The translations under genes and the position numbers were made by a program. Positions 39,535-44,183 of a DNA stretch of 44,183 bases are shown in pieces. The stretch's first letter is position 1. Each line of letters begins with the position of its first letter. The stretch spans positions 1 to 44,183 of the forward strand of contig PAZL01000063.1 in the NCBI GenBank assembly GCA_002715485.1, given 5' to 3'. The stretch is from Aequorivita sp. GTDB lineage: Bacteria; Bacteroidota; Bacteroidia; Flavobacteriales; Flavobacteriaceae. The notes below the pieces were generated by a model, which was not told the DNA's origin, made no database searches, and saw nothing but the letters and a program-made list of their open reading frames with translations.

Positions 39535-40642
39535 ATGACTACAACAGACCAAATCAAAGACCTTAAGGTGCGGTTAGATGCCTTAAGGCGCTATCTTTGA
39601 CATTGCCGGAAAAAGCATAGAGATTACCAACGACGAAGAAAAAACCTTTGACCCCAACTTTTGGAACAATCCGCAGGAAGCAGAAGCTTTTATGAAAGTT
39701 CTCCGTACCAAAAAAAAATGGGTTACCGATTACGAAACCGCAAAAACACTTACCGAAGAAGCTGAAATTCTACTTGAATTTTACAAAGACGGCGAAGGAA
39801 AGCCTGAAAATGTAGATGTGGCCTTTGAAAAGGCTGAATCTGCAATTGAAGATTTGGAGTTCCGCAATATGCTGGGCGAAGAAGGCGACGACATGAGTGC
39901 CGTACTACAGATTACCGCAGGCGCCGGCGGAACCGAAAGCTGCGATTGGGCACAAATGCTTATGCGCATGTACCTTATGTGGGCCCAAAAAAACAATTTT
40001 AAAGTAAAGGAACTCAACTTTCAGGCCGGCGATGTGGCGGGCGTAAAGACCGTAACGCTGGAAATTGAAGGCGAATATGCTTTTGGCTGGCTAAAAAGCG
40101 AAAACGGCGTACACCGCTTGGTGCGTATTTCTCCTTTTGATAGCAACGCAAAGCGACATACAAGTTTTGCAAGTGTATATGTTTACCCATTGGTTGATGA
40201 TACCATTGAAATTGAAATAAACCCAGCCGATATTTCGTGGGAGTTTGCCCGCAGTAGCGGTGCTGGCGGCCAGAATGTAAACAAGGTAGAAACAAAAGCC
40301 ATACTTACCCACCACCCTTCCGGTATTGTTATTCACAACAGCGAAACACGAAGCCAGTTGGACAACCGTGAAAAGGCAATGCAGATGCTCAAATCGCAAT
40401 TGTATGAAATTGAACTTCGCAAGCAAATGGCACAGCGTGCCGAAATTGAGGACAACAAACTTGCCATAGAATGGGGCTCGCAAATACGCAACTATGTGTT
40501 ACACCCATACAAACTTGTAAAAGATGTACGTACAGGCCACGAAACCGGAAATACCGATGCTATGTTGGACGGTGAGATTGACGAGTTTTTAAAGGCTTAT
40601 TTGATGATGACTGGGCAGAAGGAGAAGAAGGATGAACTGTAA
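39535..40642 (+). CDS. prfB: Peptide chain release factor 2 with programmed +1 frameshift
   Basis: RF2 releases nascent chains at UGA and UAA. The 5' frame (39535-39600) encodes 21 residues ending RRYL, then an in-frame TGA at 39598-39600. Reading continues in the +1 frame from GAC at 39599 to the stop at 40642, for about 368 residues. The slip site CTT-TGA-C at 39595-39601 is the classic RF2 autoregulatory frameshift. The upstream SD-like stretch is AAGGCG (39585-39590), weaker than the usual AGGGGG. The peptide-anticodon S-P-F motif is near residue 199 (VRISPFDSN), and GGQ is at 244-246. Intact gene, not a pseudogene. Confidence 0.96.
39585..39601 (+). promoter_or_regulatory. RF2 programmed +1 frameshift site
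   Basis: Purine stretch AAGGCG, TAT, then slippery CTT, TGA stop and C. Low RF2 slows termination at the TGA and lets the ribosome slip forward one base. Confidence 0.92.
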
Positions 40643-40691
40643 AAAATTCTATAATTTATTATATTGCAAAACTTATATTTCAATTAACGTT

Positions 40692-43664
40692 ATGAAAAAA
40701 TATTACTGTTTTTTAATTGTTGCTATAACAATATTTACAAACCTTTCCTCCCAAACTATTGATGCAACATTAATAGAACTAAATTCTGTTGATGACAGTT
40801 CACCTAGATATATGGTTGAAAAGAATAACAAATTATATTTCTCGGCAAAAGATAATATCCACGGACGAGAATTATGGTCTCTTGATTTGGCTTCAAAAGA
40901 AGCTTTTTTAATAAAAGATATCAACCCAGGATATAATGGAGGTTTGCAGTTTTCAAACCATGTATTTGTCAATGACATTTTATTTTTTTCGGCTAGTGAT
41001 GGAGTAAATGGATATGAACTTTGGAGAAGTGACGGTACAGAAAGCGGAACTTATATGGTTAAAGATATCAATATTTCTGGCAGTAGTTCAATCGAAAACA
41101 TGATTAGCTATAATGGAAATTTAGTTTTTAGTGCAGACGATGGTATCAATGGTCAGGAAATATGGATAAGTAATGGTAGTGAAAACGGAACCTATTTGCT
41201 GAAAGATATTAAGGTGGGACCTGATGATAGTGATATAGCAGATATTTTTGAGTTTAATGGGAATCTATACTTCTCAGCAGATAATGGTATTAACAGTCGA
41301 GAACTTTGGGTAAGTGATGGAACTCCTGGGGGAACATCAATTCTTATTGACTTAAGCGTTGATTATAACGGAGTAGTGGATGGAAATAATTTTATAATTT
41401 TCGACAATCACTTTTACTTTTTAGCAGGAGAAAATTCTTTTGAATACCATTTATGGAAAAGCGATGGAACTGCAGCAGGAACTTCTATAGTTAAAGAGAT
41501 TTATTCCTCTATGGGTTTAACTTTTGGGGCTGTAACTAATAATTACTTTATATTTTCAGCTCTTACCAACGGTATTGGTCGAGAGATCTGGGTAAGTGAT
41601 GGAACTAATAGTGGCACACAATTAATAAAAGATATTTTCCCTGGATTTCCAAGTGGCATCAATCTTCAAAATAGACAATTTGCAATATTAAATAACAAGG
41701 TTTATTTTCTAGCCAATGATGGTGTCAATGGAAATGAATTATGGGTTACTGATGGCACTTCTAATGGAACGCAAATAGTAAAAGATATTTTTCCAGGATC
41801 ACATACAAGTGGAATCGTAAATTTAACATCAAACGGGCAATACCTAATATTTGCCGCCCAAGAAAACTATAACAGCCCTACAAGCTTGTGGAAAAGCGAT
41901 GGAACTATGGCTGGAACCATCGAGATTATACAAATTGATTTGAATAAAGATTATGGGTACACTATGCAATTTTTAGAAGTCAATGATAAATTTTATTTTC
42001 AAGGAGCTGACAAAACATTAAATGGCATTGAAATTTGGGAAACTAACGGTATTCCAGAAAACACTGCTTTGACAGTAGATATTAATCATAGAAGAAGTAG
42101 CAATCCTATACCTGCTTATAGTGATAGATTTATTACTCCGCTAAATGATAAATCTGTAATGTTTGCAAAGGATGGGTTACATGGTGCTGAGCCATTTTCG
42201 ACAAACGGAACAGTTAATGGCACATTTTTACTTAAAGACATCATGCCTAACGACGATTCTTCAATAGACTTAAACCAAATTCCAGATTTTAATTTTAAAA
42301 AAGCTGGAGGAAAATTATTTTTTAGAGCCCTTGACCCTCTGTATGGATATGAATTATTTATGACAGATGGCACTTCTGCAAATACCTCTATAGTTAAAAA
42401 TATTGCCCCTGGAGCTGAAAGTAGTATTGTGGAGAGCTTTCTTTTTATTGAATATAATGATGATTTATATTTTAAAGCAAATGACCAGGTTCACGGAGGG
42501 GAATTATGGAGGACCGATGGTACTGAAACTGGTACATTTATGTTAAAAGATATATATCTTGGTCCTGGGCACGGCATTGAAAACGCAAATTATCGAGATG
42601 GTTTAAATTATCATACAGTTATGAACGGATTGTTATATTTTAATGCTGATGATGGTGTCGAGAACGCAATATGGAAAACAGATGGTACTGAAAGCGGGAC
42701 AGTTAAAGCTATTAGTATTCCTTCGTCAGGAAATAATGATAATGGGCCTGTTGTTCTTAATTCTTCCAATGGAAAACTTTATTTTGCCACAAATCCCAAT
42801 AATACGTCGTATGGATATTTTTCTTTAAATGTTAGCGATGGTACTCAATCCAATATTACAACTTTGGGAACTTGGTTATCACCCGTCCACTTCGAATATA
42901 ATATTATTTACAACAATGAATTTTATTTCATGGTTAGAGATGGATTTGGATTGGGACTAATGAAAACGGACGGTACTGTAAATGGAACAGTAATGGTAAA
43001 AGGAGGAATGGAGCGTAGCTATGTAAAATATATGGGGATTTGTGGGCCATATTTGTACTTCTCAGTAGGTGAATATAATGAATTTGATTCTGAACTATGG
43101 CGTACAGATGGTACTGCAGACGGCACCATCCGAATAGCTGAAAATGAATTACGAAATTATACTTGTATCGAAAATAAATTAGCTTATTTAGATGGTGTTT
43201 ATGGAGATAACCTTTGGATTACAGATGGCACTAATAAAAACTCGGTAGCAATAAATGTTTTAAATGGTGAACAGCTAGACAATAACTATGTAAGGAAAAT
43301 TGAAAGTTATTCCCATAATAAGATATACTTTATATCACCAACATTAGCGAGTGGCGAAGAGTTATATGTTGCTGGTGTATCTGAAATTTTAAATGTGAAT
43401 GATTATAACACTCAAACGGCTAATTCGGAAGATAAAATTATTATTTACCCTAACCCTACTAAAGGATTTTTTACCATTACATCAGAAGAAAATTTAATTC
43501 TATACAATTTAGAAATTTTAGATTTTTCCGGGAAAAACATACTAAGGAAGGATATTGGTTCAAAATCAGCCAATTTCGATATTTCAAATCTGTCAAAAGG
43601 ATTGTATATAGTAAAGATAAAAACTACTGAATCAGTAATTACAAAAAAGATAATTCTAAATTAA
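40692..43664 (+). CDS. Exported T9SS protein with about 16 ELWxSDGTxxGT repeats
   Basis: A 990-residue secreted protein. Signal peptide MKKYYCFLIVAITIFTNLSS. The body consists of repeats of about 50-60 residues, each with E-L-W-x-S/T-D-G-T-x-x-G-T followed by a short turn (for example ELWRSDGTESGTYMVKDI, EIWVSDGTNSGTQLIKDI, ELWRTDGTETGTFMLKDI); I count about 16. Interleaved G-K-L-Y-F-x-A segments suggest a beta-propeller-like fold. The last 80 residues are a type IX secretion sorting domain: IIIYPNPTKGFFTITSEENL, ending in GLYIVKIKTTESVITKKIIL. Probably an adhesin or surface protein. The start at 40692 follows from the signal peptide. The region is visibly AT-richer than prfB. Confidence 0.9.
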   Translation: MKKYYCFLIVAITIFTNLSSQTIDATLIELNSVDDSSPRYMVEKNNKLYFSAKDNIHGRELWSLDLASKEAFLIKDINPGYNGGLQFSNHVFVNDILFFSASDGVNGYELWRSDGTESGTYMVKDINISGSSSIENMISYNGNLVFSADDGINGQEIWISNGSENGTYLLKDIKVGPDDSDIADIFEFNGNLYFSADNGINSRELWVSDGTPGGTSILIDLSVDYNGVVDGNNFIIFDNHFYFLAGENSFEYHLWKSDGTAAGTSIVKEIYSSMGLTFGAVTNNYFIFSALTNGIGREIWVSDGTNSGTQLIKDIFPGFPSGINLQNRQFAILNNKVYFLANDGVNGNELWVTDGTSNGTQIVKDIFPGSHTSGIVNLTSNGQYLIFAAQENYNSPTSLWKSDGTMAGTIEIIQIDLNKDYGYTMQFLEVNDKFYFQGADKTLNGIEIWETNGIPENTALTVDINHRRSSNPIPAYSDRFITPLNDKSVMFAKDGLHGAEPFSTNGTVNGTFLLKDIMPNDDSSIDLNQIPDFNFKKAGGKLFFRALDPLYGYELFMTDGTSANTSIVKNIAPGAESSIVESFLFIEYNDDLYFKANDQVHGGELWRTDGTETGTFMLKDIYLGPGHGIENANYRDGLNYHTVMNGLLYFNADDGVENAIWKTDGTESGTVKAISIPSSGNNDNGPVVLNSSNGKLYFATNPNNTSYGYFSLNVSDGTQSNITTLGTWLSPVHFEYNIIYNNEFYFMVRDGFGLGLMKTDGTVNGTVMVKGGMERSYVKYMGICGPYLYFSVGEYNEFDSELWRTDGTADGTIRIAENELRNYTCIENKLAYLDGVYGDNLWITDGTNKNSVAINVLNGEQLDNNYVRKIESYSHNKIYFISPTLASGEELYVAGVSEILNVNDYNTQTANSEDKIIIYPNPTKGFFTITSEENLILYNLEILDFSGKNILRKDIGSKSANFDISNLSKGLYIVKIKTTESVITKKIILN

Positions 43665-43683
43665 CTCTATATCTACTAAAAAA

Positions 43684-43720
43684 CAAAGGGAACAAGATTC
43701 TAAAATCTTCGTTCCCTTTG
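43684..43720 (-). terminator. Intrinsic terminator downstream of the TPP riboswitch
   Basis: Minus-strand arms CAAAGGGAAC (43711-43720) and GTTCCCTTTG (43684-43693), extended inward by GAAGATT/AATCTT, followed by six T (43678-43683 on the plus strand are A). On the plus strand the hairpin is not followed by a T-run, so it works mainly for the minus strand. Confidence 0.8.
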
Positions 43721-43724
43721 CAAA

Positions 43725-43810
43725 TCATATTCCTTCTGCTGGCATTATCCGTTTCGAAGTCTTACGGGTATATTCTCAGCTGTTTTTAAAACTTAAGCAC
43801 CCCGATATGA
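43725..43810 (-). ncRNA. TPP riboswitch (THI element), orphan
   Basis: The minus strand reads the conserved thiamine pyrophosphate aptamer. GGGGTGC (complement 43797-43803), CTGAGA (43774-43779), TACCC (43766-43770 region) and GGATAATGCC (43741-43750) are all in order. P1 closes by TCATAT (43805-43810) with ATATGA (43725-43730), and P4 pairs CTTC (43756-43759) with GAAG (43733-43736). One departure from consensus: the P5 stem, CUGG/CCAG in the E. coli thiM aptamer, reads ACGG/CCAG, so only its two inner pairs can form. A terminator stem follows. Nothing but the 3' end of an opposite gene lies beyond it, so no thiamine gene is controlled in this window. Confidence 0.82.
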
Positions 43811-43818
43811 TAGTTGTA

Positions 43819-43826
43819 TAAAAGTA
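43819..43826 (-). promoter_or_regulatory. -7-like box for the riboswitch transcript
   Basis: The minus strand reads TACTTTTA, one base off TAnnTTTG, 8 bases before the 5' end of the aptamer. I see no clear -33 element. From here up to 43992, AT-rich sequence holds nothing else that I can recognise. Confidence 0.4.
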
Positions 43827-43992
43827 TTAAAACCTTTTGCACTTCCCATCCACTTTCACGAAACTTTAACCCTTTTTTAGCGCCACAAACAGCTTTACTT
43901 GAAAATGAAGACCATTCCCCCAGTATCTTTCGCCTTTTAGCAAAAACCCAGTAAAATCAATTAATAAGAAAGTATGTAAGGTCTACTTTTAA

Positions 43993-44183
43993 ACGTGCAC
44001 TCGCAACTCCCGAACGTACACTCACATTTATCGAACGTGCACTCACAACTATCGAATGTGCACTCACAACTCCCGAACGTACACTCACAACTCCCGAACG
44101 TACACTCACAACTATCGAACGTGCACTCATAACTCCCGAACGTGCACTCATAACTCCCGAACGTGCACTCACAACTCCCGATC
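43993..44183. repeat. 21-bp tandem repeat, nine copies, reaching the window edge
   Basis: Nine direct copies of a 21-base unit, typically ACGTGCACTCACAACTCCCGA, run from 43993 to 44181; two bases of another copy follow. Differences fall at fixed positions: GTGCAC or GTACAC (ATGTGCAC once), CACAACT or CATAACT (with CGCAACT and CACATTT in the first two units), and CCCGA or ATCGA. The array continues beyond the window. As a multiple of three it is open in several frames, so coding cannot be ruled out. The segment 43665-43992 holds the riboswitch and no gene. Confidence 0.9.

Follow-up and report, generated by a model that had tools for sequence, protein, structure and literature searches.

The window analyzed here is the whole of a 44,183-nt contig (C63) from a 2.8-Mb Aequorivita genome assembly estimated to be 90% complete. 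On its plus strand, prfB is followed by a gene for a protein with a T9SS C-terminal sorting domain; converging on the latter, on the minus strand, lies a TPP-type aptamer that starts 369 bases from the end of the contig, is preceded by two promoter-like boxes and runs into an intrinsic terminator (Table 1). The initial annotation had described an orphan TPP-type aptamer with a −7-like box and a terminator, a description borne out by the RF00059 score of 47.3 bits, the fold and the motif counts given below. It had also rightly put 13 bases between the last T of the terminator and the 3′ end of the T9SS gene on the plus strand (40632–43664) and had seen no credible minus-strand gene after it: the ORF list contained no minus-strand ORF longer than 91 aa antisense to the T9SS gene, and no thiamine gene was found after the aptamer in the window. 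Just upstream of the RNA unit, at the contig end, nine copies of a 21-bp repeat (AACGTGCACTCACAACTCCCG) form a tandem array (43992–44181, 87% matches), which may have broken the assembly.

Table 1 Features of the window around the TPP-type aptamer
Feature	Position	Strand	Basis
Upstream box GTTAAAGT, 44 nt before the start of the −7 box	43863..43870	-	GTTAA counts, alignment, pattern match
−7 box TACTTTTAT, just upstream of P1	43818..43826	-	TAnnTT in 46/46 elements
Whole stand-alone RNA unit, ~137 nt	43678..43814	-	Full-length R1/R2 model matches in Flavobacteriaceae
TPP-type aptamer; aminopyrimidine half kept, pyrophosphate half altered	43714..43814	-	RF00059 score, covariation, pocket counts
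P1 5′ strand, ATCATAT	43805..43811	-	Helix 1: both sides changed in 6/7 pairs
GGGGTGC	43803-43797	-	Read from sequence
GCTGAGA (J3/2)	43774..43780	-	Each position identical in 44-46/46
ACCC	43769-43766	-	Read from sequence; positions kept in 43-46/46
P4, CTTC/GAAG	within aptamer	-	Read from sequence
P5/L5, GGATAATGCC	43741..43750	-	L5 UAA 46/46; both P5 pairs form in 46/46, with compensatory changes
P1 3′ strand, ATATGAT	43724..43730	-	Partner of 43805-43811; covariation
Intrinsic terminator, hallmark stem GCAAAGGGAAC/GTTCCCTTTGT and T6 tail	43678..43721	-	Fold; stem conserved and covarying across genera
Terminator stem, 11 bp: GCAAAGGGAAC with GTTCCCTTTGT; six T	43721-43711 with 43693-43683; 43683-43678	-	Sequence
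T9SS C-terminal sorting domain protein, 1010 aa	40632..43664	+	PF18962, E 1.4e-15; single-member cluster c37
prfB (peptide chain release factor 2)	39692..40642	+	PF03462 and PF00472 on the L056 member of cluster c0

Scanned against Rfam, the whole window gave no family that reached its gathering score. When 43400–44000 was scanned by E-value, the TPP family RF00059 was the sole match (43814–43714, minus strand, 47.3 bits, E = 3.7 × 10−8); it covered model positions 1–105 of 105, i.e., the full length, yet stayed under the gathering score of 54.3. The Rfam model thus upholds the original assignment in its extent and leaves it borderline in its score, 7 bits under the threshold. We take GCTGAGA at J3/2 to be the aminopyrimidine-binding loop, and CUGAGA together with ACCC to be the aminopyrimidine site. 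The terminator formed in the predicted fold (whole-stretch z of −2.04); a generic terminator scan, which found 0 against 0.6 expected, did not list it, presumably because its stem is interrupted.

Conservation and spread of the unit

We identified an intact unit in 21 of the 28 Aequorivita genomes, the one under study included. It was missing, partial or broken in the other seven: in the G021 copy the GGGG/ACCC pairing is broken, G019 and G020 retain the 3′ part only, G015 has a terminator-like fragment, and no unit was found beside prfB in G006, G016 and G024. The deficits in G016, G019 and G020 may be assembly effects. In G019, GC-rich sequence foreign to the genus stands in for the 5′ half of the unit on contig C77 (L075), which may be a metagenomic chimera. 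RF00059 matched 22 of the 28 genomes at E ≤ 0.01 and four over the cut-off, the match sitting at the unit in 21 of the 22 and, in G016, only at a cis switch; two unit copies (G025 and G022) reached the gathering score. Among the weak matches in the genus, six without a locus, plus L031 and L032, fall outside the set that was read.

The block 43678–43833 is 85–96% identical in most congeners, and its flanks do not align. Across 20 Aequorivita copies (all but G004 and G021), mean identity was 88% in the unit versus 52% at −200 to −65 and 54% at −60 to 0 in the flank, against a baseline of 20% for shuffled sequence aligned likewise; the Aequorivita alignment has 22 rows and excludes G019, whose 5′ half is GC-rich, and G020, where only ~55 nt of the 3′ end are present, at the start of a contig. 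Such identity between unalignable flanks, together with covariation across genera (see below), places the aptamer block beyond chance. The initial annotation had made its reading depend on conservation in relatives, and the sequence is indeed kept in them.

In Aequorivita, the gene that converges on the 3′ end of the unit is usually prfB, which ends ≤42 nt away in 19 of the 24 mapped loci (G019 included). Upstream, on the strand of the unit, most loci have genes for a TonB receptor, a DUF4249 protein and a ~595-aa protein without Pfam domains, ending ~300 nt before the unit. In the window, G007 and G012, prfB is separated from the unit by extra genes; the T9SS gene occupies this position in the window, the only one of the 24 loci that has it. 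An earlier proposal of a short or antisense RNA directed against the T9SS gene is therefore retained, on the sequence evidence, as a candidate short RNA and loses its target, since that gene is present in a single locus, the usual neighbour is prfB and neighbours differ between genera. The intervening genes of G007 (L058, 5384–7172) and G012 (L059, 6964–9612) belong to the c14 family, the G007 member having Big_9 and receptor-L domains; a second copy of the unit's terminator stem lies near them, as if a c14-family gene and a terminator had been duplicated or inserted. The names TonB receptor, thiS, thiC, NMN transporter family, NAPRTase, isochorismatase family, prfB, methyltransferase and AIR-synthase families, racemase and RecG are Pfam-based, mostly from one example each, and the remaining gene names were assigned by eye.

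An exact-pattern scan of species genomes returned 18 stretches, from Aequorivita, Altibacter (two) and Gelidibacter (three). Model R1, built from the 22 Aequorivita copies and with a non-canonical P2–P3 in its consensus, gave matches at E ≤ 1e-3 in 45 of the 397 Flavobacteriaceae genomes sampled. Forty of its 48 matches were read and three more were Aequorivita units already counted; outside the 40 also fall those in G300, G406, G191 and G144 and a terminator-only second copy in G007. In 33 of the 40 (31 genomes), the aptamer was linked to the hallmark terminator stem or to a close variant of it, GGG/CCC having become GAG/CTC or GGA/TCC in some lineages with both sides changed. Seven lacked the hallmark stem (G080, G236, G140, G272, G073, G192 and G441) and were left out of the 46-row alignment and the 33-element orientation count described below; those in G236, G140, G073, G192 and G441 precede a co-directional gene, and that in G272 overlaps a co-directional ORF. 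The G080 match (C1, 627229–627353, minus strand; L163/L248) is an orphan TPP-type aptamer with a canonical-looking P4–P5, a different terminator and a convergent nearest downstream ORF, possibly an independent second case.

Model R2, built from 46 elements with canonical structure, matched 38 of the 397 family genomes and 27 of 237 genera at E ≤ 1e-10. After removal of G140 and G236 (cis switches) and G272 (another stem), with G353 kept as a hallmark variant, 35 genomes in 25 genera carry the aptamer with the hallmark stem or a close variant. These counts are lower bounds, because weak matches are lost to the stricter filters applied whenever more than 40 genomes were searched. An R2 search of the order (395 genomes, the family included) matched 251 genomes at 1e-4, the best match outside the family, among the matches listed, scoring ≤64.7 bits; a co-directional ORF lay directly downstream of 24 of the 25 matches read (22 of them outside the family), and the 25th was that of G080. 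A search of the phylum gave three matches in 395 genomes at E ≤ 1e-10, all in Flavobacteriaceae. Neither search of 395 genomes, that of the order taken over the matches listed, found the unit outside Flavobacteriaceae. Ten more matches (nine in g146, one in g138) each had a downstream co-directional ORF, of TonB type by eye. For g146, presumably Flavobacterium, the genomes sampled in the family and phylum searches gave no R2 match at E 1e-10, and the nine genomes read carry cis switches. Phages and plasmids gave no match to the window copy, and carriage by them was set aside.

Among the 33 stand-alone elements of other genera, the nearest downstream ORF of ≥100 aa was convergent in 24 and co-directional in nine. 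Convergent ORFs lay within 60 nt of 18 elements; the co-directional ones lay 162–787 nt away, in six genera. No thiamine gene was recognised by eye among the nearest ORFs of the 33, and the unit does not occupy the 5′ leader of a thiamine gene, as a typical RF00059 member would. Downstream gene and orientation vary between genera and, within Aequorivita, in the window, G007 and G012. The unit appears to have stayed at one location within a genus and to have moved from genus to genus. One co-directional gene follows in each genome of g33 (three genomes, 162–189 nt) and of g93 (two genomes, 206–222 nt). In Gelidibacter (L096, L095 and L088), the unit lies 130–381 nt upstream of co-directional NAD-salvage genes, identified by Pfam on L095 as nicotinate phosphoribosyltransferase (NAPRTase) and isochorismatase family, with an ltaE-like gene ahead of them in one species; in several Aequorivita, NAD-salvage genes lie beyond prfB. 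Because the same or co-directional genes follow there, local cis effects are possible in g33, g93 and Gelidibacter.

Fold, promoter motif and terminator

We aligned 46 elements: nine of the 22 Aequorivita copies, three from Gelidibacter, one from an Altibacter contig and 33 from 31 other genomes of the family. The P1–P5 architecture of RF00059 was present with covariation. Paired cells amounted to 94.0% versus 43.9–53.4% when partners were slid, both sides had changed in 22 of 31 pairs (17 of 20 in P1–P5 and five of 11 in the terminator), cells with such changes numbered 99 versus 26.6 in shuffles, and compensated pairs were present in each of the six helices, with the caveats that related rows inflate these counts and that the structure was derived from one of the rows. 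RF00059 matched 32 of the 33 stand-alone copies of other genera at E ≤ 0.01, G356 being the exception, and eight of the 33 passed the gathering score.

TAnnTT occurred near P1 in all 46 elements versus ~18 expected, and GTTAA 35–75 nt upstream in 35 versus ~5 expected, the control being shuffles of single bases only; the spacing between the two boxes was 42–44 nt in 34 of 48 spacings. We take the −7 box to be of the Bacteroidota TAnnTTTG type, and transcription would start at the foot of P1. The pattern GTTAAN37-39TANNTTTA was not enriched in the genome under study, with 27 matches versus 56 for the reversed pattern. Fourteen of these 27 (G000) were intergenic with a co-directional ORF within 400 nt, and the pattern may represent a promoter type with an upstream element.

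The terminator appears to be unconditional. In the truncated RNA, its 5′ arm paired upstream with a median probability of 0.09, exceeding 0.5 in two of the 46 elements, and in the full RNA the terminator helix had a median probability of 0.99 (lowest 0.61); no alternative pairing that would release the terminator was seen in the 46. Since the 5′ arm rarely pairs upstream and the helix nearly always forms, there is no sign of a switch from termination to read-through. The aptamer thus appears to be enclosed by a promoter motif and a terminator of its own.

Ligand pocket and relation to cis switches

The aminopyrimidine site (GCTGAGA and ACCC) is kept in the stand-alone copies at the counts of Table 1, as is the UAA of L5. 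We take the pyrophosphate site to be J4/5 with J5/4, with the roles of G60, C77 and G78 as in the E. coli thiM structure. Its consensus-derived signature, CCTGAT..CGNAGG, occurred in none of the 46 stand-alone copies and in 10 of the 39 cis copies read in Flavobacteriaceae, six of which precede thiS-thiC, three an NMN-transporter-family (PnuT-like) gene and one a methyltransferase-family gene. Weakness of P5 in the window copy, which has two G–C pairs, had been noted before and tentatively attributed to early decay; the weakness is real, and its attribution is not supported, since an altered J4/5–J5/4 and a weak P5 are common to the whole stand-alone lineage. In several genera (L146, L159, L160 and L164), P4 and P5 merge into a near-continuous helix.

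Cis switches before TonB receptors (L202–L232, L077–L083 and L002) carried the phosphate signature in 0 of 29 cases, the genome's own copy included, and may sense another thiamine form. That copy is a further RF00059 match on contig C10 (23.7 bits, E = 0.025), and 24 of the 31 other genomes with a unit likewise have at least one further match. The TonB-type switch on C10 of G002 (L083, 32.2 bits) has a P3 arm enlarged by a short tandem repeat (AACTCATAACTCAT...), an expansion that probably lowers its Rfam score. In a tree of the aptamer core, 45 of the 46 stand-alone RNAs formed one clade (support 97/95) and all 28 TonB-type cis switches a separate one (100/100), with L167 a long branch outside the stand-alone clade and L002 left out; the bootstrap is unsettled, the columns are few and the groups differ in P4–P5 itself, and the tree is support rather than proof that the stand-alone aptamers form a separate lineage.

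Possible function and comparison with known systems

Sequence comparison thus supports the existence of the unit and its structure, the promoter motif in front of it, its independence from the neighbouring genes and the change in its pocket. The explanation that we favor, at slightly better than even confidence, is a free-standing small RNA of ~137 nt with a modified TPP aptamer, always terminated, ligand-gated and acting in trans. It is the most likely one because the aminopyrimidine residues are kept, no downstream gene is kept across genera and the terminator seems unconditional. Its own promoter, made up of the upstream GTTAAA box and the −7 box, would start the RNA at the foot of P1; the TPP-type aptamer would be the body of the RNA, with the strong intrinsic terminator directly after P1, and the RNA would constitute one lineage within Flavobacteriaceae with no fixed downstream gene as its control target. 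A thiamine-type ligand would have its aminopyrimidine half bound as in TPP aptamers and its phosphate end bound differently or not at all, and its binding would stabilize P1 and so alter the lifetime of the RNA or its binding partners. Transcription, ligand binding and action in trans are what we infer from this arrangement. Tentatively, a family-wide class of sensor RNA may have been derived once from a TPP aptamer whose ligand was switched to another aminopyrimidine compound (thiamine itself, thiamine monophosphate, or a breakdown or salvage product), with a distant target in trans and with hosts that are, in many cases, thiamine scavengers.

Outside the aptamer core, the alignments show no conserved single-stranded segment that might act as a seed for base pairing, which weakens an antisense-type action. 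In 24 genomes, the RNA paired no better with the TonB-receptor leader of its own genome than with those of the others (permutation p = 0.22), by a duplex energy that ignores intramolecular folding. With neither a seed nor matched leader pairing, a protein partner or an effect on RNA stability is as plausible as antisense pairing. One candidate pairing, between UUCCCUUUG of the terminator and CAAAGGGG of the cis TonB-type switch, was attractive by eye and was not upheld: the units of G322 and G327 have TTCTCTTTG while their cis switch retains CAAAGGGG, and the same duplex test (p = 0.22) gave no backing.

The missing canonical phosphate pocket also fits an RNA without a ligand. The aptamer fold could have been kept as a scaffold, in an sRNA that binds no thiamine compound and acts via a protein or as a stable structural RNA, and both the absence of the canonical signature from all 46 copies and the near-continuous P4/P5 helix of several genera agree with this. 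Near-invariant unpaired residues in the aminopyrimidine site (44–46 of 46), however, are difficult to account for unless a ligand, or some contact of equal precision, constrains them, and we regard a ligand-free scaffold as unlikely, if worth keeping in view.

A ligand-controlled attenuator acting in cis, in which read-through would either produce RNA antisense to prfB, the T9SS gene or another gene, or express a gene on the same strand, seems improbable. The strong terminator directly after P1, the convergent ORF within 60 nt of 18 of the 33 elements, and the co-directional genes of nine of them and of Gelidibacter would suit it, but no terminator-releasing alternative pairing exists in the folds, and the gene downstream and its direction differ from genus to genus and also within Aequorivita. 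Classical attenuation was set aside as well, as no antiterminator was seen.

ThiC was found in only two of the 28 Aequorivita genomes, and not in the genome under study; most of the genus therefore probably scavenges thiamine. Scavenging, like the lack of a conserved seed beyond aptamer and terminator, would be compatible with an RNA that holds a thiamine compound as a sponge or buffer, with no base-pairing or protein target; such a role is quite improbable, as it would require RNA copy numbers comparable to the free ligand. The relic of a cis riboswitch whose thiamine gene has departed, as the initial annotation suggested with its moved thiamine operon, would account for the sub-threshold window score and for the decayed or partial copies in a few congeners (the broken GGGG/ACCC of G021, the terminator-like fragment of G015), and is very improbable for a unit that 25 sampled genera share, whose helices all show compensatory changes and which forms a clade of its own.

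The stand-alone RNA would represent a riboswitch aptamer that, in no fewer than 25 of the genera sampled, has turned into a gene in its own right. Riboswitches are usually recognised by the gene that follows them, and conservation across many genera without a fixed gene suggests an unrecognised sensor RNA. We found no stand-alone TPP-type RNA in the open-licence literature, where absence is weak evidence, and the available portion of PMC2258182 makes no mention of one. If a thiamine compound is sensed, this would be the first such RNA as far as that literature shows. The natural variation of the phosphate pocket offers a ready series for studying ligand change in TPP aptamers, and sub-threshold 'orphan' riboswitch matches in Flavobacteriaceae are not necessarily annotation noise.

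Several known systems resemble the unit in part. The fold of the HMP-PP riboswitch (thiS motif) differs from the TPP aptamer. That riboswitch senses a thiamine precursor and links its aptamer to a terminator, according to the accessible part of PMC6478431, and always accompanies thiazole-synthesis genes, according to that of PMC7266159; it shares with our unit the link to a terminator and differs in its tie to those genes. In the portion of PMC9723704 available, Rfp18 of Flavobacterium psychrophilum is described as an independent structured sRNA conserved across species. Like the unit, it is an independent structured sRNA of Flavobacteriaceae, and in this comparison by description alone the two could be identical.

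Trans-acting riboswitch RNAs (Loh 2009; DebRoy 2014; Mellin 2014) are reviewed in PMC7266159, by whose accessible text they likewise carry an aptamer on a small RNA and may act at a distance. Our unit differs from them in that its aptamer is of the TPP type. Their ligands are reportedly S-adenosylmethionine and cobalamin, and their hosts Firmicutes.

Closer at hand are the cis switches before TonB receptors of ~725–800 aa, which resemble those named OMthi in the available part of PMC5613172. The same portion of that source reports that, in Bacteroides thetaiotaomicron, transport operons linked to TPP switches showed no significant response to thiamine, whereas the biosynthesis operon responded. 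These OMthi-like switches occur in the same genomes as the unit and likewise lack the canonical phosphate signature; unlike it, they are followed by the receptor gene on the same strand and form a separate clade. With the TPP riboswitch (THI element, RF00059) itself, the unit shares a full-length match, the junction architecture, the aminopyrimidine residues, the UAA of L5 and the order of P1–P5; unlike that riboswitch, it has no fixed downstream gene, a terminator without an antiterminator, and an altered J4/5–J5/4 in place of the canonical signature (0/46).
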